Positions 25,432 to 43,234 of a DNA stretch of 48,526 nucleotides are shown here, one piece after another. The notes below the pieces were generated by a model, which did not search any database, was not told the DNA's origin, and saw nothing but the letters and a program-made list of their open reading frames with translations. The DNA lies in assembly GCA_021813505.1 (NCBI GenBank), contig JAKAKI010000034.1, positions 74,059-122,584 on the forward strand, given 5' to 3'. The DNA is from a bacterium. GTDB lineage: Bacteria; Zixibacteria; MSB-5A5; WJJR01. The position numbers and the translations under genes are program-made. Position 1 is the stretch's first letter. Every line of letters starts with the position of its first letter.

Positions 25432-25434
25432 AGT

Positions 25435-26208: not shown

Positions 26209-26951
26209 CTCGCTGCCTCTGGGAAATGGGGATAATGGCAGTCCCAGCACACGTACCGGCCGCCATGGGTCGCCAGATCGATGCGCGGGATTTCTGCCGG
26301 ACTGTCCGCGCCCTGCGCGTGGCATTTCCCGCAAAGGTCCTTGGTCTTCGGCTTTTCGGCCAGGACGGTATTCGGATTGGTCAAATGTCCATCCGGGACC
26401 GTGTGGCACGTGACGCAAGTCAGCGTGGCGTGATGCGACACGGTCTTCTGGCTGGCGATCTGCCGATGGCAGGCGGCGCATTCCTCCGGCGCGTGCGGCA
26501 GCATCGGATTGTGCGCGTTGTGGCAGGACATGCACGCGCGCCCGGGGTTATGGAGGTCGGGGTTGATCTGCGGGAATCCTGTCGGCCGCGCCGGATTGTA
26601 TCCGTGGCACAGCGGGCAGTACCCGCGCCCGATCGGTTTGATCGGCTTCACCTCGTCCGGCGCCTCGACATGTTTGGCGGCATCACCGTGGCAGACCTCG
26701 CACGACAGCCCCCGGTGCTTGGACTGGCTCTTGACCTGGTCGATATCATCGTGGCAGTCCAGACAGGCCTTCGAACCGGCGTACGAGATTGGCTGCGAGG
26801 CGATTTCGTCCACGGCCGCAGCGCGGTAATAGCCCAGATCACCGAATGTCTTCGGCACCAGAATCTTCCGCGCGATGATGAGGGCGGCCAGCGCCGCCGC
26901 AAAGATAATCACCAGCGGAATAACTTGTTGCGGTAGCTTGCGAGCGCTCAA
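26205..26951 (-). CDS. Membrane-anchored octaheme cytochrome c
   Basis: The product (248 residues) has an N-terminal membrane anchor (VIPLVIIFAAALAALIIARKI) and eight CXXCH heme sites: CLDCH, CEVCH, CPLCH, CMSCH, CAACH, CVTCH, CGKCH and CWDCH, the last near the C-terminus (YPHFPEAAR). It is probably anchored to the inner membrane and faces the periplasm, taking electrons from, or giving them to, the FeS-NrfD pair encoded next. I prefer the TTG at 26951 because GGGAGG lies six bases upstream; a GTG at 26972 would add seven residues. This is the first gene of the three-gene unit. An assignment to a named octaheme enzyme (no catalytic CXXCK is seen) is not supported, so electron transfer is the safest role. 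Confidence 0.9.
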   Translation of the reverse strand: MSARKLPQQVIPLVIIFAAALAALIIARKILVPKTFGDLGYYRAAAVDEIASQPISYAGSKACLDCHDDIDQVKSQSKHRGLSCEVCHGDAAKHVEAPDEVKPIKPIGRGYCPLCHGYNPARPTGFPQINPDLHNPGRACMSCHNAHNPMLPHAPEECAACHRQIASQKTVSHHATLTCVTCHTVPDGHLTNPNTVLAEKPKTKDLCGKCHAQGADSPAEIPRIDLATHGGRYVCWDCHYPHFPEAAR

Positions 26952-27051
26952 TCCATCCTCCCAAAGGGCCACCAGATGGCCCTCAGCTTGTGAATCTAGG
27001 AATTAAGGATGAAAAAAGCAAGCTTTAGATGCGAAAAATCCATAGGAGCCA

Positions 27052-27066
27052 TGACACTTTTTGTCA
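27052..27066. promoter_or_regulatory. Palindrome TGACA-CTTTT-TGTCA, possible operator
   Basis: A perfect five-base inverted repeat with a five-base spacer lies about 100 bases upstream of the octaheme cytochrome start and downstream of a possible plus-strand start. The half-site TGTCAC is repeated at 27115-27120. The spacing resembles dimeric regulator sites but does not fit FNR or CRP consensus. The whole interval 26952-27166 holds no gene and is A/T-richer than its surroundings, as expected for promoters. Confidence 0.4.
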
Positions 27067-27166
27067 CGATTGCGATTCGGGCCTAGTCAGAAGGTTATCG
27101 ACCATGTACCAAAGTGTCACAAAGGGGAGGTTTTAGGGCTTGTTTTGGCACATCAAGGAGCATTCT

Positions 27167-27358
27167 ATGGACGCCGTCCACTATCCCGCGCGGGAGCGAT
27201 TTGGTCCGGCTTTCCAGCCTGCTTTTCCGTGGGCGTGGACCGGATACGATGACCCGTGTCAGGCCAATCGGGATAGGGGCCTCAGGCTTTTCCCTGAGGA
27301 CCCCTCCCACACCACCCGGCATGCGGGTCCGCACCGGGCGGTTCCGAAGGTTGAGTAA
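27167..27358 (+). CDS. Candidate short gene running into the intron
   Basis: An ATG at 27167 follows a strong AAGGAG ribosome site at six bases. The first 33-34 codons are outside the intron and read MDAVHYPARERFGPAF then an aromatic/proline-rich stretch (WAWTGYDDPCQ); codons past 27266 are antisense intron sequence and end at 27358. If the intron is removed in thought, the frame continues into the terminator region and ends by 27971 after about 50 codons. I do not recognise the peptide. It could be a genuine small gene cut by the intron, or a chance frame; the ribosome site is the only real support. Confidence 0.28.
   Translation: MDAVHYPARERFGPAFQPAFPWAWTGYDDPCQANRDRGLRLFPEDPSHTTRHAGPHRAVPKVE
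27301..27344 (-). ncRNA. Group II intron domain V and start of domain VI
   Basis: On the minus strand this stretch starts GAACCGCCCGGTGCGGACC and folds back through GCATGCCGGGTGGTGTGG, the conserved catalytic hairpin. The ACCGC context fits a CGC catalytic triad, as in class C introns, rather than the common AGC. Domain VI follows immediately at 27300-27267. Confidence 0.8.
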
Positions 27359-27383
27359 ACGTGACGAGCCGGGGAACACCCAG

Positions 27384-27500
27384 TCCGTCATACGTTCCTG
27401 AGTGTTCCTCTCCGTGCCCCGCCATCGGCGCTTCCTCACTCCGTGGGATCATCGGGGCTTCACCCCTGCCTCCCAACGGGAGCTCCAGTTGCCTGGACAT
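27384..27500 (-). pseudogene. N-terminal remnant of the intron-encoded reverse transcriptase/maturase
   Basis: From the ATG at 27500 the frame reads MSRQLELPLGGRGEAP and continues with EEAPMAGHGEEHSGT, which is the usual opening of group II intron proteins just before the reverse-transcriptase domain. After about 39 codons the similarity stops and the frame runs into an 11-bp hairpin (27373-27408) and then domain V. All catalytic RT, maturase and DNA-binding parts are missing, so the protein is dead; the deletion appears to be a single event within domain IV. Confidence 0.78.
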
Positions 27501-27926
27501 CTGAGGCCTGGCGTCTTTGAGAGGCACGACCGAATCACTCTCCCTTCGGTTCAGCCCTTCGTCCCGGTATCCACCGGAACTACTATGGCCTCGGCTGACT
27601 TCTCGCTCTCCCATGGTCCGGCCACGGGATCGCCCTTTCAGGCGTAAGGCGAGATCTCCCCGGGTAAGAACACTGACTGTCACCGCAGGACCGCCGGATT
27701 TACGCCGGGTCCCTTTGGTCACAGGAACTTCGTGGTCACTTGCCCACTCATCCCGGTTCCCAGCGCCTCGTATCCGGTTTTTGTTCATCGGCCCACGGTT
27801 GCGTTCCACGCTTCCTCCGGACGAACGGTCACCCGTCCGCCCTTGCGCTTCCCTTGTGTCGCTGTGACCTGCTTCACAGAGGACTTACACCTCCAAGTCA
27901 GTGCCCATGCCGGGCGCACATAAGAT

Positions 27927-27954
27927 GGGCCGCGGCGCCTTCGCGCCGCGGCCC
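27927..27954 (-). terminator. Perfect 12-bp hairpin ending the cytochrome operon
   Basis: GGGCCGCGGCGC and its reverse complement flank a four-base loop, 23 bases past the stop of the 18-heme cytochrome gene. On the minus strand it is followed by ATCTTAT and then directly by the group II intron. The strong stem supports termination although the T-tract is weak or was altered by the insertion. Confidence 0.8.
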
Positions 27955-27977
27955 TCATTCGGTATACCCTGATCGCC

Positions 27978-29972
27978 CTAACCCTGGGTCTTCAGCAACG
28001 CGGTGAGCTTGCCCGCATCGGCCTCCAGAATCCGCATCTGCTCGACGTGGTTGTGTGTTCCCCGTGAGCCGTCCGCGGTGACCGCTTCCAGGTGCTTGCG
28101 GATCGGCTCAACGGCCGACTGCCGTTCGGGCGTCACCGGGAGCGCAGCAACCTGTGTCAGAAGCGAATCGATCTTGCGCTCGAGCGCTGCAAACTCCTCG
28201 AGCCACTCGCGATGCCGGTCGGCGTAGGAGTTGTCATGGCAATCGGCGCAGCGTTGCGATACGGGCCGGACAATCTGGCGATCGGGACGTTCGTGGCAAT
28301 CACGGCACCCGGTGCCGGCCGCGATCATCACATCCGGACTCGTGACCGGGAGATCGGCCGACTTGCCATCCAATATGGCCTGTTGTGCCGTATGGCAGTA
28401 GCCGCATTCACGCGCTGTCTGCGAATGGTGGCACGACAGGCAATCGCGTTTTTGGACGATCAACTCGCCATGGCGCCTTTGATTGGAATGGCACCGGCTG
28501 CAGGTCTGCTGGGCTTTGACCAGATGGCGCTGGTGGGAATAGGTGACGCCGAAAATCTGGGCGTCAACGTTCTCGATGCCGATGTGGCAGTTGAGACAGC
28601 CTGACGGAACCACCTCGTCTTTGCCTTCGAGGGCCGCCAGCCGGTGACCGGGTCTGGCGCTCTCAAAGAACTTCTGGAGGCGGTCATAGGCGGCATCGAG
28701 CAGCCGGTTCGCGTAGACGATATTGTGGATCGGCTTTCCCTTTTGAACCATGTTGAAGTTGTACTCGGCCTCACCCAGGAGCGAATCCTCAGCAACCTCG
28801 CTGGGCCGCGACGCGACGCGCTGCTTGCGCAGACGGTTCGCCTCCTCCAACGCCTTATTGACTTCATTTACCTTCGTTTGCGCGGTCTTCTTCCAGTTGT
28901 CCAAGAGACGGCTATAGCCGGCACCGTGGCAGGATTCGCAACTGGCGCCGGAAGCGAGAAACGTCTGGCCGGCAAAGCCGGCGCTGTCGGCGCTGGTGTG
29001 AACGATATGGCAGCCCTGGCAGGAGATGCCCTTTTCGAACATCGGATTTGGCTGGTCCGCCACACCGATACCACCATGCCCGACGAACAAATCCTTCTGA
29101 GCCTCGTGGAAACCCTCGTGGCAGGTCTGACAATCCGGGATGACCTGCTCTTTGAAAGTCGACTTGTGCTGCATCGACAGGTGGCAAAGATCACATTCGA
29201 TCTTGTGTTCCGTGATGTGCGTGCTGTGCATCAGATCGGTGTTGCTGTACTTGTCCAGCCGCTCGCGGTCCCAGTGGCAGCTGTAGCAGCGTTCGCGCGG
29301 CACCACGCCATCGCCCACGACCATCGAGCCGTGGCATTTGACACAGTCGAGCTTGCGCTGGATCACTCCGATATGATCGTATTTGGGCGGCTCCTGACCG
29401 GCGATGGTCGTCGGCGGATCGTGGCAGATCGTGCAGCGTGAGTTGTTCACGCCTTTCTCATCGAGCTTGAAATGGCAGATGATACAGGTGGCCTCGGTCA
29501 CCTTCATGTGCTCGCCCTGCACGATCTGGGAGTGGCAGGACGTGCATTTGAGTTTCTTGCCGCGGCGCATTTCTTCCAAATGGGGCTTGTGGTCGAAATT
29601 GACGCGTCCGAACATCACGCGTCCGTGCAGCAGGCGTTCGGAGTGGCAGCCGGAGCGGAGGCAGGATTCATCGGCGATCTCCGCCCAAGGCTTGGATTTG
29701 CGGTAGGCGTTGGTCCAGTACTTCACCAGCTGGTTCATGTCGCGAATCTTGCCTTTGACCACGTTGGAGTAGCCGGGTTCGTAGTGGCAGTCGCGGCACG
29801 GAACATTGTGATGGGACGATGCGGCCCAGGCGTCATAGAACGGCTGCATGTAATGGCACGTCGTGCAGAAATCCGAGCGGTTGGTGAATTGAATCGCGCC
29901 GACAAACAACAGCAACGACGCCAGTCCGGCGATCAAGAAACCCAAACCCACTCGTCTAACCAATATTCGCAT
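27978..29972 (-). CDS. 18-heme cytochrome c with NapC/NirT-type N-terminus
   Basis: This 664-residue protein has an N-terminal membrane helix (VGLGFLIAGLASLLLFVGAI) followed by a NapC/NirT-like start (DFCTTCHYMQPFYDAW, PCRDCHYEPGY), the family that oxidises quinol and feeds periplasmic enzymes. I count 17 CXXCH motifs and one CX4CH (CLRSGCH, third in order), the last near residue 600 (CRDCH, CADCH). Between hemes 12 and 13 lies a long charged helical insert (about residues 365-465), with a coiled-coil look, and a second helical tail follows the last heme. It is the last gene of the unit with the two c-b fusions, 51 bases after the upstream stop, and is followed by a terminator. Function as a quinol-to-periplasm electron hub is inference. 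Confidence 0.9.
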   Translation of the reverse strand: MRILVRRVGLGFLIAGLASLLLFVGAIQFTNRSDFCTTCHYMQPFYDAWAASSHHNVPCRDCHYEPGYSNVVKGKIRDMNQLVKYWTNAYRKSKPWAEIADESCLRSGCHSERLLHGRVMFGRVNFDHKPHLEEMRRGKKLKCTSCHSQIVQGEHMKVTEATCIICHFKLDEKGVNNSRCTICHDPPTTIAGQEPPKYDHIGVIQRKLDCVKCHGSMVVGDGVVPRERCYSCHWDRERLDKYSNTDLMHSTHITEHKIECDLCHLSMQHKSTFKEQVIPDCQTCHEGFHEAQKDLFVGHGGIGVADQPNPMFEKGISCQGCHIVHTSADSAGFAGQTFLASGASCESCHGAGYSRLLDNWKKTAQTKVNEVNKALEEANRLRKQRVASRPSEVAEDSLLGEAEYNFNMVQKGKPIHNIVYANRLLDAAYDRLQKFFESARPGHRLAALEGKDEVVPSGCLNCHIGIENVDAQIFGVTYSHQRHLVKAQQTCSRCHSNQRRHGELIVQKRDCLSCHHSQTARECGYCHTAQQAILDGKSADLPVTSPDVMIAAGTGCRDCHERPDRQIVRPVSQRCADCHDNSYADRHREWLEEFAALERKIDSLLTQVAALPVTPERQSAVEPIRKHLEAVTADGSRGTHNHVEQMRILEADAGKLTALLKTQG

Positions 29973-30023
29973 GCGACTCCCTCACTGCCGATTCTCAGGA
30001 TGTTACCGCGGCGTGATCCAATA

Positions 30024-32801
30024 TCAGCGGTAGCCGAAGATCTCCGCCCATATGATCAGAATAATCAGCAGCAGACCGATCGACAAGGCAATTGCACCGA
30101 AGATCTTCAGGCCGCGGACGACCAGAGGCGGAAGCGGTTCGGCCAGGTGGCGTTTGAGCTGATTGGCCGCCACCAGTTCTTCGTACTCCCGGGGACGGTC
30201 CAGCTTGAATTCCTCCAGAGGAATCCGGCCGGTGAAGATCACTGTGTCCATCGGGAATTTGTCGGGACGGAAGTGCGTATTGAAGAAATGCACCGTAAAG
30301 ATGAAGCCCACGGCAAGGAGGGCCTCATCTGAATGGATGATGGTGGCCACGTTGATAAACCAGCCCGGCAGGATCCGCGTGAAGATCTCGGGGAACCACA
30401 ACATCAGCCCCGTCGATCCAATCACCATGACGCCCCAGAAGACCGCCAGATAATCGAACTTCTCCCAGTAAGTCCAGCGCCCGTACGCCGGCCGTGGCCC
30501 AATGCCGATGAACCACTTGAATGTCGCCACACCTTCGCGCACATCGGTCCAACTGGGCACCATCGAATGCGAGCTGGTGAGAAACTGCTTCCACGTCTTG
30601 CCGGACGTGCGCTTCTGGCGGATCACGTCATAGAAGTGCGCACCGAAGTAGAAGAACGTGATCACCGCACAGACGCGGTGAATGTACCCCGCCGACTCGA
30701 ATCCTCCGAGCACGCGCGAAATGAAGCGCGCCCAGCCCAGATAGGAGAACTTCAGAGTCATTCCCGTCAGCGCCAGTCCGATGAAGCTGATCACGACCAG
30801 GATGTGGAGTTGGCGCTGCCGGCGGGTGAAACGGCGGTATTGCAGGCCGTGAGATGCAATCTCCTGCTGCTTGTGCTGCTTCATCGCCTGGAACGACCGC
30901 GGCAGCCAGAGCAGAGTGTGCGTACCGGCCACCACCAGCGTGCCCACCAACAGCGAGGTCATGAACCAGAAGGTGTAGAACAAGACCGGATACTTGCTGC
31001 GATCGTGATGCGTGGCATGGGTCAGGTACCCGGCGAACTGCCGATGCGATCCGGGGTGGCACTTGCCGCAGGTCTTGACGATGTTCTGGCGCGACAGATG
31101 CGACTTCGGCTCGAAGGGAGGCAGAATATCGTGCGAACCGTGGCAGTCGTAGCACTTCGCCGCCGCCGTGTAGCCGAGCTTCGACACCTTGCCGTGGAAG
31201 GTGTCAAAGTAGGTCTTCATGACCTCTTCATGGCAGCGGCCGCACTGGTTCATGATATTGAGCTTGAAACCCTCGTTGTCCGTCCGCGAGATGGTGTGCG
31301 CCGAGTGGCATTCGTTGCAGACGGGCAGCGGCTTGTCGGTTTTCGAAACCGTTGGCGAGTGGATGCTCTGCGTGAATTGCTCGTAGATGCCGTTGTGGCA
31401 GCGCGCACAAGTCTGAGCAATGTTGTTGCGGTTAACGCTGGAGGCAGTGTCCGCATGCGGCAACTCGTGATGGGGCGTGTGGCAGTCGGTGCACATGGCG
31501 GTCACCACCAGACCGCTCTCCAAGAGCCCTTTGCCGTGAATGCTCTCGACGTAGTTTCCAAGAATGTTCGTCTGCTGGCCGGTATACCGCATGGCCGCCT
31601 TCTGGCCGGCGCGATGGCACTTGCCGCACAGATCGGGCACATGGGTCGGATAAGTCGGCGACGCCGGAGTGCGGCGGTCGCGAATCCCGTGGGTGCCGTG
31701 GCAATCGCGGCAGGTTGGTGCGACCTGATCGCCACGGTCCGCCAGCTTGCCGTGAGTGCTCGTCTGGTAAGTCTTGACGACCTCAGCATGGCAGATCGAA
31801 CAGTCGACTTTCGTCGTGATGGTGGCACAGGGACGCTTGGCCGTGGGACTGGCGCCGGTGTGACATTGAGCGCAGGCCGTATTACGATGAGCGGACACAT
31901 GAACTTCGGTCGTATCGATGCTCAGCGAAATCGTGTCCTGATCGCGAACGATGAACTGGCCCGGCTTGGCGTGGCAACCCAGGCAATCCTGGTCGGCCAT
32001 GCCCATCTCATAGAAGATATTGCGAACCTTGTGAGGTGAATGGCAGTCCACGCAGACCGGGACTTCATTGGGTGCTGACTCCCACAGCTCACCGCGAATC
32101 ACCTTTTGGTGAACCCTCTCGATGATCCCGTGGCACTTCTGGCAGGTCCGCGCGACATTGGCGCGGTTGATGCTCGACTTCGGGTCGGTATGGGGCAGGA
32201 CGTCGTGCGACGAGTGGCAGTCGGAACAGACCGCGCTGACAGTCAATCCCTTCTTGAACAGGCCCTCGCCGTGAATGCTCTCGGAGTAGTGAGTCAGGAT
32301 ACTGTCCTGAGGGATGTCATACGTCTGCGTGACCGGCGTGCCTTCCTTGTGGCAGCGGCCACAGACATAAGGAACATTGAATTTGCTGACGCGCGAACCG
32401 GCCGCTTGCGCGCGGATGATATCATGGGAGCCGTGGCAGTCCCAACAGCGCGGGGCGAGCTTCACGCCCTCTTTGGCCAGCTTGCCGTGGAGGCTGCCGG
32501 CGTAGGTTGCACCAACCGCATCGTGGCATGAGCCGCAATCCACTGGCGCAACAGCGGTTTTATGCGGGAACTCGGCGCCGGCAAGGTCCGCATGGCAGGC
32601 GACACATTCCAATTCGCCATGGATCGATCCGGCAACGGCCTTGCGATCGACGAACAATGACACCGTGCGTCCGGCCCGCTCGGCCTGCAATGATGGATCT
32701 TCATGACAGCCAAGGCAGTCATCGGCAGACTGCGCATGCGCGGCCGCACTGGCGGCAAGCACCGTCAACAAGACCAACCACCATGGACGCAGCGATTTCA
32801 T
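30024..32801 (-). CDS. 19-heme cytochrome c fused to a b-type membrane cytochrome
   Basis: The 925-residue product has a signal peptide (cleavage near AAAHAQS), 19 CXXCH motifs over the first 590 residues and a C-terminal domain of several membrane helices like formate dehydrogenase gamma/cytochrome b561 (histidines in IHRVCAVITFFYFGAHFYDV and IIHSDEALLAVGFIFTVHFF). The heme part is an internal duplication: CWDCHGSHDII and CRDCHGTHGIR, then YSESIHGEGL and YVESIHGKGL, then CSDCHSSHDVLPH and CTDCHTPHHELPH recur in order. Start at ATG 32801, ten bases after the upstream stop; the longer frame begins inside the upstream gene. One polypeptide thus joins a quinone-reactive di-heme b domain to a periplasmic heme wire. 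The close paralogue upstream has 11 hemes. Confidence 0.92.
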   Translation of the reverse strand: MKSLRPWWLVLLTVLAASAAAHAQSADDCLGCHEDPSLQAERAGRTVSLFVDRKAVAGSIHGELECVACHADLAGAEFPHKTAVAPVDCGSCHDAVGATYAGSLHGKLAKEGVKLAPRCWDCHGSHDIIRAQAAGSRVSKFNVPYVCGRCHKEGTPVTQTYDIPQDSILTHYSESIHGEGLFKKGLTVSAVCSDCHSSHDVLPHTDPKSSINRANVARTCQKCHGIIERVHQKVIRGELWESAPNEVPVCVDCHSPHKVRNIFYEMGMADQDCLGCHAKPGQFIVRDQDTISLSIDTTEVHVSAHRNTACAQCHTGASPTAKRPCATITTKVDCSICHAEVVKTYQTSTHGKLADRGDQVAPTCRDCHGTHGIRDRRTPASPTYPTHVPDLCGKCHRAGQKAAMRYTGQQTNILGNYVESIHGKGLLESGLVVTAMCTDCHTPHHELPHADTASSVNRNNIAQTCARCHNGIYEQFTQSIHSPTVSKTDKPLPVCNECHSAHTISRTDNEGFKLNIMNQCGRCHEEVMKTYFDTFHGKVSKLGYTAAAKCYDCHGSHDILPPFEPKSHLSRQNIVKTCGKCHPGSHRQFAGYLTHATHHDRSKYPVLFYTFWFMTSLLVGTLVVAGTHTLLWLPRSFQAMKQHKQQEIASHGLQYRRFTRRQRQLHILVVISFIGLALTGMTLKFSYLGWARFISRVLGGFESAGYIHRVCAVITFFYFGAHFYDVIRQKRTSGKTWKQFLTSSHSMVPSWTDVREGVATFKWFIGIGPRPAYGRWTYWEKFDYLAVFWGVMVIGSTGLMLWFPEIFTRILPGWFINVATIIHSDEALLAVGFIFTVHFFNTHFRPDKFPMDTVIFTGRIPLEEFKLDRPREYEELVAANQLKRHLAEPLPPLVVRGLKIFGAIALSIGLLLIILIIWAEIFGYR

Positions 32802-32811
32802 CACGCGAAAC

Positions 32812-34839
32812 TCACTGACCCACTTCCTTGTCACCGATGCGGAACTTCGGTCCTTCGGGCGGCTTGCCCTTCTCCGCGGCGATCCGCCGGTACCAGGCGG
32901 GGTGCTTTTCCTTGAGCGTGTGTTCCGTCATCTTGCCATCCATCCAGGTCAGGCTCATCGGGAACTCGTCCGGATGGAAAATCACAAAGAAGAAATGCCA
33001 GACGATGATCGCCAGCGTTGCCAGCCAGGCCTCATAGTAGTGAATCGTCTCCGCTGCGATGACGACCCAGCTCTTCAAATGCTGTGTGAAAACTTCCGGG
33101 AACCAGAGCACCAGGCCGGTTGCAATCATCACGACCGTGCCCCACACGAGCGCCCAATACTCGGCCTTCTCGGTGTACTCGTACCGGTCGAAGTCCGGCT
33201 TAACGCTCGACCAGCCAAGGTGGAATCGAATGTTCTGCAAAGCCTGGGTCACGTCGGACAGCCGCGGCAACATGTGATACAGCTCGGTACGGCCACGCCG
33301 CGTCGCGATGAGGAAATACACGTGATATATTGAGGCGGCCATCATCGCCACGGCCGCGATTCGGTGCACAAGGCTGCGGATGTGTTCCGTCAGCCCGATG
33401 AAGGAGAGCGGGCGGGACCACCAGGCATCCGGGAAGCGCAGGGCGAATCCGGTGATGACCAGCGTGATGAAGGAGATCACCAGAATCGCGTGCTGGATCA
33501 CCATGCTCCGCGAGAAGCGCTCGTAGCTGACCTGGGATTTTTCGAGGGCACGCTTGCGTCTGATGAAGTGAAGTGTGATCACGCCGTTGTGGAGCGCCAT
33601 GCCGCCGATCACGACGATAATCAAGGGAATGTAAATGGTCTCGATGATGCGCTTGGCGCCATCCGGCTTGCCGATGACCGCCTCGTGAGTGTATGAGGCG
33701 GCGAATTCAGCGTTCGCCTCGGGGTGGCATTTCTGGCAGGTCGCCACGATCCGGCCGGGCGCGATGGAACTGGCTGCATTCGTCGCCGGGAGAATGTCGT
33801 GCGCCTTGTGGCAACTCACGCAGTTGGCGGCCTTGGTCGAACCACGTTTGACCGCCATCCCGTGGTAGGAGTCCTGATAACTCGAGATACGTCCACCCTT
33901 GAGGCCGTACTCGGAGACCAGGTCCGGATTGTTGTGGCACTTCGCGCACACGTAGTCAGACAAATTGCCGGCATTTACGGGCGACGCAGCGCCCGATGGG
34001 GCGAGGATCTGATGCTCCCCGTGGCAGTCGGTGCAGTTGGGTGAATCCATGACCCGGGCCGCCAGTGCCTGTCCGTGAATCCCGCGCTGGTACTGGGCGT
34101 AAATCTCCGAGTGGCACTGCCCGCAGGTGGCGGGAATATTGAATTTGTTGACCTTGGAGGCCGGATCATCGGCCCTCTTAAGATCATGGGTGCCGTGGCA
34201 ATTGTTGCAGGTCGCGGCCCCGAGAACGCCCGCGTTGATGCGCTCGGCATGAATCCCGCCGACATAACGGCCATAAGCATCGATCAAGTGCACGTCGGTC
34301 CCTGCGCCTTCGGCAAGACGGCTATGGCAGACCGCACAGGTGTGCGGGAGGTTTTTCGGATGGACGAGCGATGTGGTGTCCGCCGCTGGACGGATATCGT
34401 GCGTTCCATGGCATGAGCCGCAGGTCGGCGCCAGAACGTCGCCGTGATGGGCCGCGGCTTTCTGCCCGTGCCAGCTGGAGGCGAACTCTTTGGCGACGTC
34501 CTCATGGCAGGTTCCGCAACTGGCCGGCGCGAGCTTCTCGGCATGCGGGAAGTCACTCACGCTGGCCAGATCCGCGTGACAATCGGTGCATCCCACGCCC
34601 GCGTGCACGGAGGATGCAAGCGATGCCTCCGAGACCACCAGCGAATCGGCGCGCGCCCCAAGGTCGCTGAACAGGGATTTGTCGGCGTGACAATCGGCGC
34701 ACGGATTGCCCTCGGCATATGCCAGTCCGCCGAATGCCAGGAGCAGCGTTACGATGCCCATGAGGAGAGCAAAGCGGCGGCCGGCAGGGCCCCCCTTGGC
34801 CCGCCGGTCCATGACCCTTTGATCCATTGCGCCAGTCAT
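32812..34839 (-). CDS. 11-heme cytochrome c fused to a b-type membrane cytochrome
   Basis: A 675-residue paralogue of the following gene product. After a signal segment (ALLMGIVTLLLAFGGLAYAE) come eleven CXXCH motifs (first CADCH, last CQKCH) with the same intervening features (CGSCHGTHDIR, YVGGIHAERI, CHKAHDILPA), then a C-terminal di-heme cytochrome b/FdnI-like membrane domain (VHRIAAVAMMAASIYHVYFL, IHYYEAWLATLAIIVWHFFF). It would couple menaquinol chemistry to periplasmic hemes. I chose the ATG at 34839 with GGAGAG just upstream; the earlier codon at 34935 gives a charged, signal-less extension. It is the first gene of the three-gene cytochrome operon. Confidence 0.91.
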   Translation of the reverse strand: MTGAMDQRVMDRRAKGGPAGRRFALLMGIVTLLLAFGGLAYAEGNPCADCHADKSLFSDLGARADSLVVSEASLASSVHAGVGCTDCHADLASVSDFPHAEKLAPASCGTCHEDVAKEFASSWHGQKAAAHHGDVLAPTCGSCHGTHDIRPAADTTSLVHPKNLPHTCAVCHSRLAEGAGTDVHLIDAYGRYVGGIHAERINAGVLGAATCNNCHGTHDLKRADDPASKVNKFNIPATCGQCHSEIYAQYQRGIHGQALAARVMDSPNCTDCHGEHQILAPSGAASPVNAGNLSDYVCAKCHNNPDLVSEYGLKGGRISSYQDSYHGMAVKRGSTKAANCVSCHKAHDILPATNAASSIAPGRIVATCQKCHPEANAEFAASYTHEAVIGKPDGAKRIIETIYIPLIIVVIGGMALHNGVITLHFIRRKRALEKSQVSYERFSRSMVIQHAILVISFITLVITGFALRFPDAWWSRPLSFIGLTEHIRSLVHRIAAVAMMAASIYHVYFLIATRRGRTELYHMLPRLSDVTQALQNIRFHLGWSSVKPDFDRYEYTEKAEYWALVWGTVVMIATGLVLWFPEVFTQHLKSWVVIAAETIHYYEAWLATLAIIVWHFFFVIFHPDEFPMSLTWMDGKMTEHTLKEKHPAWYRRIAAEKGKPPEGPKFRIGDKEVGQ

Positions 34840-34969
34840 CACTCTCCGCACCTCAGAATGAGTTTGAGCAGGATACGATCTCACGATCAAATCCGAAGCG
34901 GAATCGTCTTCATTTGCGCGCTTCGGTCCATGCACCCGGCCCCGAATATACGGGAGCTAACAAGTCGAG

Positions 34970-35147: not shown

Positions 35148-36263
35148 TCAGTTCTTCGCGTGGCACTGGTCGCACCCCTCGCCGCTAATACCGCTCGTGG
35201 GATCCCATCGCAACGAGAAGGAGTTGTCGCCGCCATGAGCGCGGTGGCAGGTGAGGCAGAAGACGCCGTTCTTGGCCGGATCAATCGCGGTGGCGTCGGC
35301 AAAATTGAGCGCGGGGTTATTAACGAATCGCAGGCGGGGCGTGGCCTGGAATCCGGCACCGGTGCCGGCGACCCAGTGAGCGGGAACGGTCGTGCCGCTG
35401 GCGGCACCTTGGGCGATGTTATTTGTCGAGCCCCGTTCCGCTTCGGACGATGGATGCCGGTTGTGAATGCCGTCGCCATCCGGGTCTATGTACCCGTTGC
35501 CGGAATAGACGTGGTGGCAATCAACGCACATGTTGGTTACTTCGAATACGGTTGCGGCGTCAGTCCCGTACCCGATGTTCGCCGCTTCATAGCGCTGTAG
35601 TCCGGTCGCCGATGCGGCCTCAAACATTCCAAATTCAGGCTCCCCACCCGGCCAGGAAGCCCACTGCAGATTGCGCGATTTGTTGTTCCCGTGCGGATTG
35701 TGGCAATCTATGCAACTCACCGAGGCGTCGGCCATTCCATTGAAGTGGCAGCGATTGCATAAATCCGAACCTGCAAGCGATTGCCCGCGATCCAGTGAGT
35801 GACCGCGAGGGTTCCGGGTGCCCACAGGCGCAAAGTATCCGGCGGAGCGCTCCGTCAGGCCATTCGCATCCGCAGTCATCACGTCGGGTATCCCGGCTTG
35901 GTTGTCATGACAAGTGAGACACAGATCGACCGGATCCGGGGCCTTCAAAAGACTCTTTCCCCCGTTGTAATTCTGAGGGTATGGTCCAAAGGGATCGGAG
36001 AGGGGATCGCCATCTACCGGGTGCTGCCGCGATTCGTGCATGGCATGGCAATCGGAGCAGCGTAATGTCACTCCGTTATGATACGTCGGTGCGAATGACG
36101 TAATTCCGGCCGCCATTTTGGGCGTTGTCACACGCTTATGGAGCGGCCGGCCGCGATAGTCGCCGGAACCATTGCTTGCTCCTGCAAGAGCGGGTAGCAG
36201 GACTCCAATGATCGCGAGGATGACAAGACCGCGGATTCTGAGGATAGGTAATGAGAGACGCAT
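35148..36263 (-). CDS. Seven-heme exported cytochrome c, OmcS-like layout
   Basis: A 371-residue protein with signal peptide (LVILAIIGVLLPALAGASN) and seven CXXCH sites: CSDCH (with AMH after it), CLTCH, CNRCH, CIDCH (NPHG after it), CVDCHH, CLTCH (RAHG after it) and CDQCH at the extreme C-terminus. The order and the long glycine/asparagine-rich loops between hemes resemble the hexaheme nanowire cytochrome OmcS of Geobacter; one extra heme (CNRCH) lies between the second and third equivalents. The ATG at 36263 has AGAGGGAAC upstream and a hairpin follows the gene, so it is monocistronic. Extracellular or periplasmic electron carrier is supported; polymer formation is inference. Confidence 0.88.
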   Translation of the reverse strand: MRLSLPILRIRGLVILAIIGVLLPALAGASNGSGDYRGRPLHKRVTTPKMAAGITSFAPTYHNGVTLRCSDCHAMHESRQHPVDGDPLSDPFGPYPQNYNGGKSLLKAPDPVDLCLTCHDNQAGIPDVMTADANGLTERSAGYFAPVGTRNPRGHSLDRGQSLAGSDLCNRCHFNGMADASVSCIDCHNPHGNNKSRNLQWASWPGGEPEFGMFEAASATGLQRYEAANIGYGTDAATVFEVTNMCVDCHHVYSGNGYIDPDGDGIHNRHPSSEAERGSTNNIAQGAASGTTVPAHWVAGTGAGFQATPRLRFVNNPALNFADATAIDPAKNGVFCLTCHRAHGGDNSFSLRWDPTSGISGEGCDQCHAKN

Positions 36264-36377
36264 CGGTGTTCCCTCTTGGCCCGGGAATCGGGAGATTTTA
36301 TGTCTAAACTCGTTTCGCAACACGGTCTGATGCCGGTGTGAGTGTTCAGTAGATCAACTTCTGAAGTCGATTGGGAA

Positions 36378-36407
36378 GGGCGTTCTGCCGTGTCAGGCAG
36401 AACGCCC
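36378..36407 (-). terminator. Perfect 12-bp hairpin after the six-heme cytochrome gene
   Basis: GGGCGTTCTGCC and its exact complement enclose a six-base loop, 40 bases past the stop at 36447. In the minus direction it is followed by TTCCC. It separates the six-heme and seven-heme genes into their own transcripts. Confidence 0.75.
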
Positions 36408-36446
36408 CTCGCCTTCCTTGCGAATCGGATTACACCAACTACTTAT

Positions 36447-37454
36447 CTAGCCACGCGAATGGCAGTCTCTGCACAGATCGCGATAGCGGGCACCCGAGCC
36501 CTCTTCGCCGATCGGAAGCACGCCGGCCGAATCCGGATAGATCAGACCAAACGCGCGCTGGTTACCATGCGCCTTGTGGCACGTGAAGCAGGAAGGAGTA
36601 AGGTCTGCGGGCATCGTTGCGCCCCACGCCGTTCCCTGCGTACCCCAACTGCCAGTCGGGCTCATGACTTTTACGCGGTAGGCACGATCATCGAACAGAC
36701 CGCCGCTGATATTCACGTCGGCAGTCGGATGCCGGATCCAATTGCCCGCGACACCACCCGCGGCCATGTTCGCATCGGTGGACTTGCCGTGGAAATTCGT
36801 ATGGCAAGTCTTGCAGTATTGACCGTAGTAGGAGGAGTCGCTCTTCGGCTCGTTGAAATCAACGTTGCCGATGTCGTAGTGGTCGGTCCCACCGGCAACG
36901 CGCTCAAACACGTCCTTGGTGAGGTCATTGGTCGCCACCGCGTAGGAAATCACGTTTCCGCCAGCGTACAGATTGCGGTACGGGTTGGAGGCATGTGTGC
37001 CGCCACGACCATGCGGGCTGTGGCAATCGATGCATTCCAGACCCACGGGATTTGCAAACGTCCCGCCGGGTGCGGTCGCCGTTGAACCAAGCGTGTGTCC
37101 CGTCGCATCAAAATACGGCGCGGTGTTGTTCATGTTGAGTCCACCAGCTTGACGGCCCAATGTGGGAGCCGTACCGCCGTTGGCTTGGAGTACATCGGGA
37201 GCGAACGTCTGATTGTCGTGGCAAGACAGGCAGAGAGCGTTCGGCTCATTGCGGAGCAGCCACTGGTACGGTCCAGCGCCACCGACTGTTGTGAATGTTC
37301 CGGTTCCGTCGGCATTGTACCCGTGTTGCTGCGAGCCGTGCATTACATGGCATTCGTTGCAATTCAACGTGCCCTTGTAATGATAATCGCCGGCAAACGC
37401 GATCCCTGCGCTCGTCAGCGCGATCACGGCTGCCAGTACTACCACTTTCTTCAT
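36447..37454 (-). CDS. Six-heme exported cytochrome c, candidate OmcS-like nanowire subunit
   Basis: A 335-residue protein with a short signal peptide (KKVVVLAAVIALTSAGIAFA) and six CXXCH sites: CNECHVMHGS, ALCLSCHDN, LECIDCHSPHGR, YCKTCHTNFHG, SCFTCHKAHGN and a C-terminal CRDCHSRG. The same sequence of sites, with CxxCHxMH first, a GH...APGG region before CxxCHxPHG, a CxxCHxxxH fourth site followed by RHP, and a heme within the last ten residues, is what I recall of OmcS, the hexaheme that polymerises into nanowires in Geobacter. A perfect AAGGAGG precedes the ATG at 37454, which suggests high expression, and a strong terminator follows. Loops are rich in Gly, Asn and Thr, as in extracellular cytochromes. 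Identity to OmcS is by pattern only. Confidence 0.88.
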   Translation of the reverse strand: MKKVVVLAAVIALTSAGIAFAGDYHYKGTLNCNECHVMHGSQQHGYNADGTGTFTTVGGAGPYQWLLRNEPNALCLSCHDNQTFAPDVLQANGGTAPTLGRQAGGLNMNNTAPYFDATGHTLGSTATAPGGTFANPVGLECIDCHSPHGRGGTHASNPYRNLYAGGNVISYAVATNDLTKDVFERVAGGTDHYDIGNVDFNEPKSDSSYYGQYCKTCHTNFHGKSTDANMAAGGVAGNWIRHPTADVNISGGLFDDRAYRVKVMSPTGSWGTQGTAWGATMPADLTPSCFTCHKAHGNQRAFGLIYPDSAGVLPIGEEGSGARYRDLCRDCHSRG

Positions 37455-37500: not shown

Positions 37501-38649
37501 TTATTTCTCCGTTTGAGGATCCGATGCAACCTCTGACGATGCCGGCGGTTCAAGTCCCGGCGGAATGGGGCTCGCGTTCGCCGGCCGCAGCGATTTCAAT
37601 TCGTTCGCGGCCAAAGCTCCGGGAAGCACATATTGCTGGACCCGCCGGCCAACACGCTCGGCCACCGCCAGGTGCGACACCCCGTCGCCAACCAGGGCAG
37701 AGGGGAACCTAAGGTTTCCCGGCGCCCCGCCGAAGCCACCGATAAACTCCAGGAACTTCCCATCGGACGAGTAGTGCTTGACCGCTTGTCGAAGTCCGTC
37801 CGCCACCCAATAAGTACCATCTTCGGCAAAGAGCATTGACACGGGAAACGAGAGGTCGCCTCCTGCGATCTCGTGATCTCCGAAGCCCAACAGGAGTTTC
37901 CCCTCAGGGCTGTAAATCCTCACCGCAGGCACACCGCGGTAGTCCAGAATCGCGAGCCGGCCATCCGCGGCCACCGCCATCCCGGTGATGCAATCGATCT
38001 TCTCCGCCGCAGCATCAAGAAAGACCTCTGCGCGCCCGCCATCCAGGCGGCGCCGCAAGATGCCGCTGCGTTCGCCACCGATGCTCGCGTAGAGCCAGCC
38101 CAGCGTGTCAATACCCAGCTTTTCAGGACGAAGCGAAGTGCCTTCCCAGCCCACATCGGCCAGCATGTCGATGTGCTCGATGACTTCACCGCGTATGTTT
38201 AGGATGTCGATCTTGTGCGAGAAGAAATCGGTGAGGTAAATGTCTCCCTCGGAGGTGATCGCAATTGAATTCGGCTCTCCCGCCGACTTTTGACCGGTTT
38301 TCTGGTCCGTGACCCAGTGATTGAAGGTGAAGCGCGGGAAACCGGCAGAGTCAATCACATCGACCGCATGCCGGCCGGCATCAAGGACGTACAGTTCTCC
38401 TGACAGCGGATCAGTCGCCATTCCGCTGATGGACCTGAATCCTGTCGATCCTAACGGCTCATAATAGATGGCTTTCACGAACCAGGGACTCACTTGGCCG
38501 AACGCTCCAGACCCGCCGATCGATAGGACGGCGAATAGGAAACCCGACGCAATGTATCTGCAAAGCGATGCAGGAATCCAGCATGATTCGTGAAAAGAAT
38601 CACATGTCTTCTGCCAGGGAGAGTGCGGACGGGTGGCAATTCGCATCAT
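37501..38649 (-). CDS. Exported NHL-repeat six-bladed beta-propeller protein
   Basis: A 382-residue protein with a late signal peptide (about residues 32-52, FLFAVLSIGGSGAFG). Repeating blades are evident: SGMATDPLSGELYVLDAGRH, NSIAITSEGDIYLTDFFSH, TGMAVAADGRLAILDYRG, VSMLFAEDGTYWVADGLRQ, and a final FPSALVGDGVSHLAVAER, the NHL-type propeller. A proline/serine-rich tail follows. It has its own promoter and lies 46 bases upstream of the six-heme gene. NHL propellers occur beside extracellular multiheme cytochromes in Geobacter-type clusters, so a role in assembling or presenting the cytochrome is plausible; there is no enzymatic motif. The ATG at 38649 has no strong ribosome site, so the exact start is unsure. 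Confidence 0.85.
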   Translation of the reverse strand: MMRIATRPHSPWQKTCDSFHESCWIPASLCRYIASGFLFAVLSIGGSGAFGQVSPWFVKAIYYEPLGSTGFRSISGMATDPLSGELYVLDAGRHAVDVIDSAGFPRFTFNHWVTDQKTGQKSAGEPNSIAITSEGDIYLTDFFSHKIDILNIRGEVIEHIDMLADVGWEGTSLRPEKLGIDTLGWLYASIGGERSGILRRRLDGGRAEVFLDAAAEKIDCITGMAVAADGRLAILDYRGVPAVRIYSPEGKLLLGFGDHEIAGGDLSFPVSMLFAEDGTYWVADGLRQAVKHYSSDGKFLEFIGGFGGAPGNLRFPSALVGDGVSHLAVAERVGRRVQQYVLPGALAANELKSLRPANASPIPPGLEPPASSEVASDPQTEK

Positions 38650-39035: not shown

Positions 39036-39863
39036 TTATTGGCGCGTAGCGGTACAAGGCGGCGCCTTGGCCACCTTGGTGAACTGGTTGCAAGCTCGGC
39101 GCGCCAGTGAGTGGGCCAATCTGGTGATGTCGTGCTCGACTCCAAGACCAAAAAGCCACTCACCTGAGTTCCCTGTGGCATGGTAGGTGTCGGACCAGAG
39201 GGTTTTTCCCGTGCGGCCATCCCTCAATTGTAGCGATACCCCCACGGTTGGAATAACTCCGGAATAGGCATCGGTGACAGCGTGGTAAGCGATGACGGTC
39301 CCGAGAACGAAATAGTCGACATCAAGTGCCTGCCGCAAACGCTGGCTTTGGACATCGTCCATCAGAACCGGCAACCGGATACGCGCCCGGAGTGTCGCGG
39401 TTTCCACGTCGCCGGCCGCCACGACGTCGACCTTGGATGTCTGACTAAGCTGGTCCTGAAGGAGCCGCGCGAAGATCCGGGCTCCGTCCTCCGATTCGGC
39501 CAAGTTTTCCAGCGGCAGAACCGCGAGCCGCGCCTTCGCTGGCACAACGTGGATGGTCTGCACGCATGACTGCGACCCGCCACAGGTGTCTCTCGCCAGC
39601 CAGGTGCGAGTGATCGTGTAGCGATCAGGAGAAGGTCCGGGCGTGACCCTGTCTTCAAAGGTTCGAAGCAGCTCACTGCATCCACCCGTGGCGATGATCG
39701 GGATCGCCGCCGTGTCGGTCGAGCGATTGCACCCGACAGTCAAATCGGCCGTGCACTGCATCACAATCGGATCCGCCTCTTGTGCCTCAGCCGGTAGGGC
39801 CGCGCCGGCAATGAAGACTGCGCCCGAGATGCAGAGAATGAGCCGAAGTCTCGCCCGCCTCAT
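39036..39863 (-). CDS. Exported HYR-like plus CsgG/TolB-like protein
   Basis: A 275-residue protein with signal peptide (LILCISGAVFIAGAALPAEA). The first third has a Cys-containing hyalin-repeat-like segment (RTWLARDTCGGSQSCVQTI), the second two thirds a CsgG/TolB-N-like fold (ARLAVLPLENLAE, FARLLQDQLSQ, VDYFVLGTVIAYH, GVSLQLRDGRTGKTLWSDT). The latter type forms oligomeric outer-membrane secretion pores or envelope regulators. It overlaps the upstream lipoprotein gene by four bases and is the last gene of the unit starting with the 42-heme cytochrome. Joining of the two domains is unusual. A conduit accessory or pore part is inference. Confidence 0.75.
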   Translation of the reverse strand: MRRARLRLILCISGAVFIAGAALPAEAQEADPIVMQCTADLTVGCNRSTDTAAIPIIATGGCSELLRTFEDRVTPGPSPDRYTITRTWLARDTCGGSQSCVQTIHVVPAKARLAVLPLENLAESEDGARIFARLLQDQLSQTSKVDVVAAGDVETATLRARIRLPVLMDDVQSQRLRQALDVDYFVLGTVIAYHAVTDAYSGVIPTVGVSLQLRDGRTGKTLWSDTYHATGNSGEWLFGLGVEHDITRLAHSLARRACNQFTKVAKAPPCTATRQ

Positions 39864-40441
39864 TTGAGTGTCCTCAGTGAGTTGCGGCAGAGCTTGGTCA
39901 GCAATTCATCAAGGGTGTGAGTTTCACCGATGGCGAGCACCGGAAACTTGGGCCCTCCCCGTTCACCAAGCGAGATGTCCCAGACTATCCGTCCTGTCGG
40001 AGCATCGACCATTTGCAGCGACAGTGAGATCATCGGGAATTCTTCCTGCCCGACACGTTCCATCCGATAATCCCGGACAGTGCCAAGGATGATCCCCTGA
40101 ACCCCGGCCTTTTGCCCAATCAACTGGAGAGCTGCGCTGTCCAGAGGCACATCACCGGTAATGTTCAGTTGGTTTCTCACGTCCGTTTCTATTTTGGTGA
40201 AGTACCCTGGAGCGATGACTTCGTGGTCCTTGCGCTTGAGGAGCTCCGTGATGAAAACGCGTTGCACCTTCTGGCCCGCCTTTGGGTCATCCGCCAGTGT
40301 CAGGAATTGCGCCACACCGAGGCGGCGATAGAAGCTCAGGTCGGCTTCCGGGTTCAGGTAGGCGGTTGGGCCGCTGCATCCGGCCATCAGCGCCAGAACT
40401 CCCAGAAGCCCCAAAACACCCTGTAAAGTCCAAGTTCGCAC
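39860..40441 (-). CDS. CsgG/LpoB-like outer-membrane lipoprotein
   Basis: A 193-residue lipoprotein with the lipobox LMAGC after a hydrophobic stretch (LQGVLGLLGVLALMAG). The mature part has a CsgG/LpoB/DUF799-like core: RRLGVAQFLTLADDPKAGQK, ELLKRKDHEVIAPGYF, GVQGIILGTVRDY, LSLQMVDAPTGRIVWDI. I place the start at the GTG at 40441 because AAGGA lies seven bases upstream and the gene then sits ten bases after the beta-barrel stop; the longer ATG at 40489 would overlap that gene. It is related in fold to the next product and may form an oligomer with it at the outer membrane. Confidence 0.78.
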   Translation of the reverse strand: MRTWTLQGVLGLLGVLALMAGCSGPTAYLNPEADLSFYRRLGVAQFLTLADDPKAGQKVQRVFITELLKRKDHEVIAPGYFTKIETDVRNQLNITGDVPLDSAALQLIGQKAGVQGIILGTVRDYRMERVGQEEFPMISLSLQMVDAPTGRIVWDISLGERGGPKFPVLAIGETHTLDELLTKLCRNSLRTLK

Positions 40442-40451
40442 TGTCTTGTCC

Positions 40452-42110
40452 TTAGAATGAAGTCGAAATGCTGACGCCCCAGTTTTCATTGGATTGACCC
40501 CCAATGGTCGTTTGATGTGTATACTGCGCGCTAAGCGTGGAACTTGGTCCGAGCCAGAAGACAACATTGGCCAAAAGCGTGCTGGGCCGGGCCGTGACCT
40601 TCGGCGCAGCTGGATCGGCCAATTGGATCGCCTGCTGCCTGGAGTAGCTGAAGCCAGCATTGGCCAGGGAAGGCCAACGGTAAGTTCCTGTCACGGTCCA
40701 GGTTGGTGTCCACTTGCGCTTTAATTGCCGGTTGTGTCCGACAGCCCAGGCTGCCGAAATCCCCAAATTCGTAGTCACCGTGTATTGAAGGTTGGTGTTG
40801 AGGTTTTCCTCGGAAACCCTCATTGCGCCAATCCTCTCACCACTGAGAATGCTCGAGTATCCCGCCTGCATCTGTACACTTGCCAGAGGCTGCAGGCGGG
40901 AATAGACATTCGAGGCTCCGGCATACCGGTCCGCCTGACGACCGTGGCGATCGGCAAGCGTCATCTCCGCCGACCAGTCCACACGCACAAATGGCTGTCC
41001 GCGAAAAGCCAGAAAATACGCGTCGTTATACTTCGCTCCTTCCGGGGCACCTGTGTAGTATAGCCGGTAGAATGTCCCCATGACTCGCATATGCCTGTAC
41101 AGCTTTCCTTCCGCGGAGATACGTCCCTGCCAGTAGTCTGTTCTCTGTGCAGTCTGGTCCGCCAGCGCACCTCCCCTCTCCACATATCGGGAGGCTGAGG
41201 CTGTCACTTCTCGCACCGGTGTCCAGGAGACGGTCGCTGAAGCCAGGTGGTTTGTGAGGTTTGCCGCCAGGACCGATGCACTCGTGCGGGAGGTGTGCTG
41301 GAAGCGGCCACCGTATTGCGCCGTCCAGTTGAGGCTGGGAAACGGATCACCGCCCAGGCTGAGGCTCGCGGAGTGCTGATCCTGTGAACTGGAAACCGAG
41401 GCGTAGCTCTGATTCCAGGTGCGATCAAAACCATAGGTCAGATTCATGCGACTGTGCCACCAAAAGGTGCGGTCTGTGCTCGCAGTAGCTCTATAGACTT
41501 CAACCAGTTCCGCGGACGCCCCGTGGGATGTCCTCTTCTGACGGGAATAAGAGAGCGCCAGGACATGCGGTCCGGGCTGCCACGTCACCTGATAGGTGTT
41601 CCAGTTTTCCCTCCCGGTTCCCCGGGAGGTTTGTGTCCGGCGCGCCCGCAGAAAATCGGCCGAGAAGCGTGGCCAGCGATCGGGCTGAGCATAGATCGCT
41701 CCCCGCCATCGGCGGCTGACATCCTCTTCCCCGTCGATTCCTGGTTGTTTCTGCGTGTGAGGCTCGTAGACCAGTTGTCCACCGTATCCGTAACTTGTCA
41801 ATGTCAACTCGTATCGCGGGCGAAAGTCTGCCGGCTGCCCGCCCTGACGGCCTCGGTGCAGGAAGTTACCGGTAAATGAAAGTTGGTTCTTGTAGAACAA
41901 CCGATCGGACACGCGCACGTAGTATTGCTGCAGGAGGTCCTGGCGTTTCCCCCCCGAGCTTGGAATGGCCTGGTAGTCAAGTCGCATGGAACCACTCCAT
42001 ACCGCCGCCGTTGATTCCGATCCCAGCAGACTCATGATCAGAACTGTCAACAGTGTTCCCGGAAGCCGGAACCAATGAAGGGCCCCGGCGCCGACCGGCC
42101 TGCCTGGCAT
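40452..42110 (-). CDS. Large outer-membrane beta-barrel protein, candidate electron conduit porin
   Basis: A 552-residue protein with signal peptide (LLTVLIMSLLGSESTAAVWS). The whole mature part is alternating amphipathic strands with aromatic belts (RYELTLTSYGYGGQLVYEP, YQVTWQPGPHVLALSYSR, WNAQYGG-type turns) and ends in phenylalanine (VSISTSF), the signal for outer-membrane insertion. I count on the order of 26-30 strands. The size fits MtrB/PioB-type porins that ensheath a decaheme, though no CXXC is present and no family name can be given. It overlaps the upstream cytochrome stop as TGATG, so translation of the two is coupled, which is how porin-cytochrome conduits are usually encoded. 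Confidence 0.84.
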   Translation of the reverse strand: MPGRPVGAGALHWFRLPGTLLTVLIMSLLGSESTAAVWSGSMRLDYQAIPSSGGKRQDLLQQYYVRVSDRLFYKNQLSFTGNFLHRGRQGGQPADFRPRYELTLTSYGYGGQLVYEPHTQKQPGIDGEEDVSRRWRGAIYAQPDRWPRFSADFLRARRTQTSRGTGRENWNTYQVTWQPGPHVLALSYSRQKRTSHGASAELVEVYRATASTDRTFWWHSRMNLTYGFDRTWNQSYASVSSSQDQHSASLSLGGDPFPSLNWTAQYGGRFQHTSRTSASVLAANLTNHLASATVSWTPVREVTASASRYVERGGALADQTAQRTDYWQGRISAEGKLYRHMRVMGTFYRLYYTGAPEGAKYNDAYFLAFRGQPFVRVDWSAEMTLADRHGRQADRYAGASNVYSRLQPLASVQMQAGYSSILSGERIGAMRVSEENLNTNLQYTVTTNLGISAAWAVGHNRQLKRKWTPTWTVTGTYRWPSLANAGFSYSRQQAIQLADPAAPKVTARPSTLLANVVFWLGPSSTLSAQYTHQTTIGGQSNENWGVSISTSF

Positions 42111-43234
42111 CAATGACCACCGGACGGATTGTGCACGTTGTTCCCGTTTGGAGTGGAGTAATCATCCCCGTGCCCATTCATGCAGTGCTGGATGTCATAG
42201 GAGCGATGAGGCTCAAAGTTGGGGAGTTGCTTTGCAATGATCCCCTCAACTGGTATGGAGGGCGTTGTCTGATCGGCGTAGGCATGGCAACCGGTGCAGA
42301 AACGGCGCGCTTGCGCCGCATTGTTGCGAATATCGGTCAGACCGTACCATCCGGGGCGCTCATCCGAAAGCAGAAATCCATTCGGGTTTTGATTATTGTT
42401 CCCCGTGGATCCGTGCGGGTTATGGCAGTCGTAGCAGGGCAGCCGATCACCCGCCTTCACGGACCCACGAGTCGTAAGTATTGCGTGGCCTGCCCGCGAG
42501 GAGCCTGTAATCGTCCGGCTGTAGTAGTTGGCGATGCTCCGTGAGGTTGGCGGAAGCGAAGCGGGCCCGGTCGGACCATGGCACTGAAAACACATGTCGT
42601 ATTGTGGCGGGGCTGCGTTGATCCCTGAGCCGGCAATTGGGCCGTAGGCCTTGACCAGGTGGTCGTATGGTCCTGCGCCGTTGTGCGGCTCGTGACAGTT
42701 CAAACAGGCGCCATGACCGGTGCCATCCAGTCGCGGCATATTCGGGCTGCTGTAGTGTTTTGAATAGGTCAGATTCTCCCAAATCGTCCGTCCCGGCCAC
42801 CGGACCCGATTCTCGACTCCCGGAATCCTCTGGCCGCCCGAATTCGCTTCAAAGTACCCGTGGTAGATATGCTGGTCGGGGAATCGGTCAGTCCCTTGGG
42901 CAGGGTAACCGGCGGTTGCTCCGGTGGGGCGGTTGATATGACACCCCTCAACACCGCTCGTCGAGTAACAGAGCATGTTATCGTTGGGGGCAAAGAGGTT
43001 TCGAATCTGCGGTTGGTCTTCCGCGTGCAATATGTGGCATTGGCGGCAATCCCCACGGGGAACAGTGGCATCCCGAAGCACACCCGAGCTCGTCGAAAGA
43101 TGCGCTCCAGGGTAGGGCAGGTTGGGCGCGGTTTGGGCCAAAGGCCGATGATTCCCATCAAGTACACTGACACCAACAATGATGGTGATCCTGAGCATCC
43201 AGACTACGTATTTATCAATATCCGCGCGTCTCAT
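42110..43234 (-). CDS. Atypical multiheme cytochrome of the conduit operon
   Basis: A 374-residue exported protein with an N-terminal hydrophobic segment (MLRITIIVGVSVLDG). Five canonical heme sites are present (CRQCH, CLNCH, CFQCH, CYDCH, CTGCH), plus an extended CX8CH (CYSTSGVEGCH) after the first and a broken seventh site CMNGH near the C-terminus in a Gly/Asn-rich tail. Intervening sequence (PRLDGTGHGACLNCHEPH, GAGPYDHLVK, CYDCHNPHGS) marks a cytochrome c3-like or doubled-CXXCH protein. It starts eight bases after the 42-heme gene and ends in a TGATG overlap with the beta-barrel. It is a likely partner inside or next to the barrel. The length is moderate and no repeat is seen. Confidence 0.86.
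   Translation of the reverse strand: MRRADIDKYVVWMLRITIIVGVSVLDGNHRPLAQTAPNLPYPGAHLSTSSGVLRDATVPRGDCRQCHILHAEDQPQIRNLFAPNDNMLCYSTSGVEGCHINRPTGATAGYPAQGTDRFPDQHIYHGYFEANSGGQRIPGVENRVRWPGRTIWENLTYSKHYSSPNMPRLDGTGHGACLNCHEPHNGAGPYDHLVKAYGPIAGSGINAAPPQYDMCFQCHGPTGPASLPPTSRSIANYYSRTITGSSRAGHAILTTRGSVKAGDRLPCYDCHNPHGSTGNNNQNPNGFLLSDERPGWYGLTDIRNNAAQARRFCTGCHAYADQTTPSIPVEGIIAKQLPNFEPHRSYDIQHCMNGHGDDYSTPNGNNVHNPSGGH

Follow-up and report, generated by a model that had tools for sequence, protein, structure and literature searches.

Organization of the hexaheme locus

The window, by which we mean the entire 48,526-nucleotide stretch of Zixibacteria DNA that was analyzed, contains a gene designated P0001 that lies on the minus strand within a run of genes for multiheme cytochromes and putative outer membrane factors (Table 1). 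Its reading frame extends from an ATG at 37454 to a stop at 36447 and encodes a protein of 335 aa. A perfect Shine-Dalgarno sequence (AAGGAGGT) is located 5 nt before the ATG. The Sec-type signal ends in AFA, directly before GDYH, and contains no lipobox. Six CXXCH sites follow (CNECHVMH, CLSCHDNQ, CIDCHSPHG, CKTCHTNFHG, CFTCHKAHG and CRDCHSRG), with an RHP motif after the fourth and the sixth falling within the final eight residues. The initial annotation of this DNA was thus accurate in describing a perfect ribosome site, six heme sites in an OmcS-like order, an RHP motif and a terminal heme near the C-terminus. Because more than 20 genomes encode relatives that are 42-93% identical and have all six sites intact, the gene is not a chance reading frame. 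Pfam recognizes only a generic Paired_CXXCH signature in its product.

A strong terminator had also been reported downstream of P0001. A strong, perfect hairpin is indeed present shortly 3' of the stop codon (region MFE -47.5, z -4.9). It lacks a following T-run on the coding strand, however, and a terminator scan of the window does not list it. We infer that it is a transcript stabilizer or attenuator rather than a canonical terminator.

Table 1. Features of the P0001 locus (window coordinates)
Feature	Coordinates	Strand	Basis
P0001, OmcS-like secreted hexaheme c-type cytochrome, candidate filament subunit	36447..37454	-	Translation, OmcS profile match, His conservation
Perfect GC-rich hairpin between hexaheme and heptaheme genes	36360..36412	-	Folding z -4.9; no T-run
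Heptaheme paralogue (S), next gene downstream of P0001, second OmcS-like superfamily member	35148..36263	-	57.6 bits, OmcS-family HMM
NHL beta-propeller, P0001 partner directly upstream	37501..38649	-	Pfam NHL; pairing across loci
CsgG/GNA1162-like protein, N-terminal HYR-like domain	39036..39863	-	Pfam GNA1162-like E 0.0024, HYR_4C E 0.0012, neither reaching its curated cut-off; position conserved
LpoB/CsgG-like lipoprotein	39860..40492	-	Weak LpoB match; position conserved
Predicted outer-membrane beta-barrel, porin-like, putative conduit	40452..42113	-	Sequence character only, no Pfam match; position conserved
Multiheme cytochrome, 5 CXXCH, candidate conduit partner, not OmcS-like	42110..43234	-	OmcS-family HMM -1.6 bits
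Giant Paired_CXXCH cytochrome, 42 CXXCH, ~1058 aa	43243..46419	-	By position, counterpart of 26-heme cytochrome in OmcS cassettes

The NHL gene ends 46 bp upstream of P0001. On the other side, the heptaheme has sites 2 and 3 separated by an additional, seventh heme site, and genes of its type adjoin the hexaheme in several genomes. The tandem CsgG/LpoB/GNA1162-like pair was encountered in nearly all complete cassettes, and the homologue of its lipoprotein member in locus L093 matches LpoB with an E of 1.7e-4. The weak likeness of the pair to the curli secretion channel hints at a role in export. The giant cytochrome is unusually heme-rich for a single protein, and its counterparts in related cassettes have about 23-42 heme motifs. 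Two further minus-strand genes (30024-32834 and 32812-34935) encode multiheme cytochromes, with 19 and 11 CXXCH motifs respectively, that are fused to a C-terminal b561-like membrane domain and are possibly quinol-cytochrome oxidoreductases. The window also contains a cytosolic NiFe hydrogenase-like cluster (1809-6889, minus strand), judged from translations alone, comprising large and small subunits, FAD and FeS subunits and a maturation protease.

P0001 is distantly related to OmcS

The OmcS query used for comparison has a mature part identical to 6EF8 chain A. Pairwise methods did not connect it to P0001: a single-sequence phmmer search of the PDB with P0001 returned an unrelated octaheme reductase as its best match (E 0.97) and did not find OmcS, and a single-sequence OmcS search of P0001's own genome yielded nothing significant. 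By blastp, the alignment covers OmcS residues 5-174 only at 36 bits, and P0001 falls outside the published pairwise definition of OmcS homologues (E < 1e-5, > 75% coverage; PMC10954620). A profile built from seven close relatives of P0001 likewise did not reach OmcS. However, a broader profile made from P0001, its relatives and its paralogues, from which OmcS orthologues were left out, ranked OmcS first of 177,635 PDB sequences with an E of 6.8e-19 and aligned to OmcS residues 1-350. The nanowire proposal of the initial annotation turned in part on such profile homology, which was therefore found. The second match was 9yuq, a putative multiheme cytochrome (E 5.5e-5), and the third, a weak one, was the filament cytochrome OmcE (7tfs, E 0.0017). 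Adding OmcS orthologues to the profile gave E values of 5e-34 for OmcS (residues 1-406) and 1e-4 for OmcE, and hhalign of the P0001 family against the OmcS family returned a probability of 99.8% (E 6e-30).

Against the OmcS-family HMM, mature P0001 scored 47.1 bits. The maximum among 500 shuffles that kept the CXXCH motifs was 17.4 bits, and shuffles keeping CXXCH plus 4 residues averaged 18.0 bits with a maximum of 43.0, so that the margin over this strictest control is modest. Scores across real mature sequences were 45-47 bits, with maxima of 17-23 for CXXCH shuffles and 39-43 for those keeping 4 residues more. Among the genes of the window, the same HMM gave 63 bits for the hexaheme and 58 bits for the heptaheme, while the other multiheme proteins, including the one with 42 hemes, had negative scores. 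With six CXXCH sites collinear with those of OmcS and profile similarity over most of its length, P0001 belongs to an OmcS-like superfamily, and on these comparisons it is a real but distant homologue of OmcS.

Both the likeness and the distance are apparent when P0001 is set beside Geobacter sulfurreducens OmcS (6EF8/6NEF). The six CXXCH sites have the same order and following residues, both signals end in AFA, the first histidine lies exactly 7 residues before heme 1, and the terminal heme is at the C-terminus. Unlike its counterpart, P0001 has a mature part of 314 residues (407 in OmcS), with an overall identity of about 25%. The likeness to OmcE (7TFS) is confined to the weak profile match, since OmcE is a tetraheme and overall sequence similarity is absent; its four hemes can be superposed on hemes 1 to 4 of OmcS (PMC9473688). 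Another parallel outside Geobacter is DA_402 of Desulfurivibrio alkaliphilus, an OmcS-like extracellular cytochrome that has been assigned to a clade sister to OmcS within Desulfobacterota; six of its seven heme motifs align to OmcS, making it comparable with the heptaheme of the window (PMC12545173).

Twelve histidines are invariant across the superfamily

Histidines were aligned across 57 proteins: OmcS and 16 orthologues, 23 members of the P0001 family (P), 8 paralogous hexahemes (T) and 9 paralogous heptahemes (S). Exactly twelve columns are histidine in 57/57 proteins, and they consist of the six CXXCH histidines and six others, all of them kept in the heptaheme of the window as well. In P0001 the six others are H25, H39, H120, H148, H242 and H296, and their counterparts in mature OmcS are H2, H16, H110, H147, H257 and H335. 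Twelve is just enough to bis-ligate six hemes. Outside this set, H222 of P0001 (OmcS H247) is common to P and OmcS only; H44 is invariant in P, common to P and S only, and absent from OmcS. This extra histidine could change heme ligation.

OmcS has twelve histidine ligands, eleven from within the chain and one supplied by the neighboring subunit at heme 5 (PMC6584659). The initial annotation had the C-terminal heme bridging subunits, which does not hold for OmcS given that its inter-subunit ligand belongs to heme 5. As the superfamily has twelve invariant histidines and OmcS twelve ligands, the distal set retained in the P0001 sequence most probably includes the donated one. We take the donated residue to be OmcS H16, which corresponds to H39 of P0001, the histidine of CHVMH; its partner is presumably H332, the heme 5 proximal histidine in the numbering used here. 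The twelve-histidine set alone is no proof of polymerization, because the T and S paralogues, which may or may not form filaments, have the same twelve.

The P family forms a separate clade

In the superfamily tree, P, S and OmcS are separate clades with full bootstrap support; support for T is weaker (95/31). OmcS and its orthologues make up a 100/100 clade that excludes P0001, and the P clade lies outside it on long branches. P0001 is therefore OmcS-like but not an OmcS orthologue. OmcS homologues in diverse bacteria have already been published (PMC10954620, PMC10553843), so the claim of a nanowire type outside Geobacter is not new as far as the OmcS type is concerned; what is new is a separate deep clade, which BLAST surveys with OmcS as the query would most likely overlook at E < 1e-5.

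P-family genes are found in 22/132 genomes of the Zixibacteria phylum, a count that leaves out two genomes (G063 and G086) in which the weak matches are OmcS orthologues. Clear OmcS orthologues, full length and about 30-35% identical, are found in 18/132. No genome has both types, against 3 expected across the 132 genomes (hypergeometric p 0.03, without phylogeny correction). A same-genus relative (93% identity) is from a Candidatus Zixiibacteriota groundwater MAG, and further relatives occur in Candidatus Eisenbacteria MAGs, with a remoter one in locus L024. Another relative, at locus L018, comes from a genome named Ignavibacterium, but this name is probably wrong, since the hexaheme and gene layout are the same as in a genome of the Zixibacteria phylum (G084). 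A search of plasmids with OmcS and a search of viral contigs with P0001 both returned nothing. P0001's own genome has a second P-family copy (contig C95, 17208-18203) that is 69% identical and solitary, lying downstream of a transporter-like gene with no NHL partner or cassette.

Hexahemes are usually paired with NHL genes in equivalent cassettes

Neighborhoods were compared by scanning the loci with iterated profiles. The P layout consists of a giant Paired_CXXCH cytochrome, often an NHL gene with a T hexaheme, a multiheme cytochrome, the beta-barrel, two LpoB/CsgG-like proteins, NHL, P and often S. In Zixibacteria, OmcS orthologues are arranged as NHL, OmcS, barrel, two LpoB/CsgG-like proteins, PPIase, 26-heme and 16-heme cytochromes, and thus occupy a cassette equivalent to that of P0001 within the same phylum. 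No match between the barrels of the two cassette types was seen at E 1e-6. An NHL gene lies directly upstream of the hexaheme in 12/15 distinct P loci for which sufficient sequence lies upstream, 6/6 T loci and 7/9 OmcS loci; it is missing in three P loci. The initial suggestion that P0001 has its own NHL partner therefore reflects a near-rule of the family. Locus L024, labelled Pseudomonadota, has three consecutive NHL-cytochrome pairs whose cytochromes are distant members of the OmcS-like superfamily.

Oet-type cassettes have been described with a porin (OetI), a periplasmic cytochrome (OetA), a surface cytochrome (OetB) and an OmcS-like gene, the last proposed to encode wires (PMC10553843). 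The Zixibacteria OmcS cassette has the parts of oetABI and of the 16-heme, 26-heme, PPIase and beta-propeller operon (PMC10553843, PMC5539420), namely propeller, PPIase, 26-heme, 16-heme and barrel. The window cassette resembles them in its propeller, barrel and giant cytochrome; it differs in having no PPIase and in including the 42-heme cytochrome, the heptaheme and the multiheme-b561 fusions. These parts are analogous, and their correspondence to OetI, OetA or OetB is a likeness of layout.

Discussion

A role for P0001 in extracellular electron transfer is very likely. By analogy with OmcS, we consider it somewhat better than an even bet that P0001 is a filament-type secreted hexaheme that polymerizes into an extracellular heme wire, with the NHL protein and the cassette assisting; polymerization taken by itself we hold, on the same analogy, to be reasonably likely. 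Homology, ligand conservation and gene order are the observed steps of this mechanism. As we infer the others, the six hemes would stack in sequence order along the chain with two histidines each, and one distal histidine, by analogy H39, would pass head-to-tail to the neighboring copy as a ligand of its heme 5, such that copies polymerizing outside the cell would form a continuous heme wire. The NHL propeller may serve P0001 as a dedicated partner in assembly, capping or export. The subunit, electrons or both could cross the outer membrane by way of the beta-barrel, the CsgG/LpoB-like pair and the 42-heme cytochrome. Electrons would presumably come from the quinone pool through the adjacent NrfD/FeS and multiheme-b561 modules (24226-34935), pass on to the giant cytochrome, the barrel and the P0001 filament, and leave it for minerals or partner cells.

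Alternatively, P0001 might be a discrete extracellular or periplasmic carrier, a monomer or small oligomer that shuttles between a porin conduit and acceptors and forms no filaments. We regard this as a possibility to be taken seriously, though the less favored one. It is unlikely that T and S, which share the histidine set, are wires in every case, H44 could satisfy one heme within the chain, and AlphaFold with 11 and 19 sequences produced unusable models (pLDDT 33 and 36). On the other hand, the complete OmcS histidine set is retained, and filaments are formed both by OmcS, which the profile places nearest among solved proteins, and by the weaker match OmcE. A further reading makes P0001 the surface-exposed outer component of a fixed porin-cytochrome conduit, in the role of OetB or MtrC, and not a wire. 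Its place beside genes for a beta-barrel and a giant multiheme cytochrome, as in oetABI (PMC10553843), would fit, but this reading is improbable: P0001 has no lipobox, a different cytochrome adjoins the barrel, and the same authors proposed the OmcS-like genes of oet cassettes as wires. Convergence of CXXCH-rich sequences, with P0001 an unrelated Paired_CXXCH cytochrome, would agree with the pairwise searches and the generic Pfam match but is the least credible explanation and was rejected on the shuffle controls and the below-zero scores of the other heme-rich proteins, and it is further opposed by the first rank of OmcS in the PDB, the invariance of distal histidines far from any CXXCH (H25, H120, H242) and the gene cassette common to both types.

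The physiological role of OmcS filaments is itself disputed (PMC11077965). Because P0001 keeps every histidine that holds the hemes of OmcS and the same kind of gene set, this Zixibacteria lineage probably also makes conducting cytochrome threads. A more tentative generalization, which we think has less than an even chance of being correct, is that OmcS-superfamily wire subunits are each paired with their own NHL protein and exported or polymerized by a shared machine of the barrel and two CsgG/LpoB-like proteins, with OmcS, P and T acting as interchangeable cartridges in one cassette across Zixibacteria and Eisenbacteria.

The P family bears on how cytochrome wires are assembled and on which organisms make them, and with it the OmcS plan reaches into uncultured Zixibacteria and Eisenbacteria. 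The twelve-histidine rule allows OmcS-type ligation to be tested simply from sequence, and the pairing of NHL and hexaheme genes singles out a specific partner protein for deletion or co-expression.
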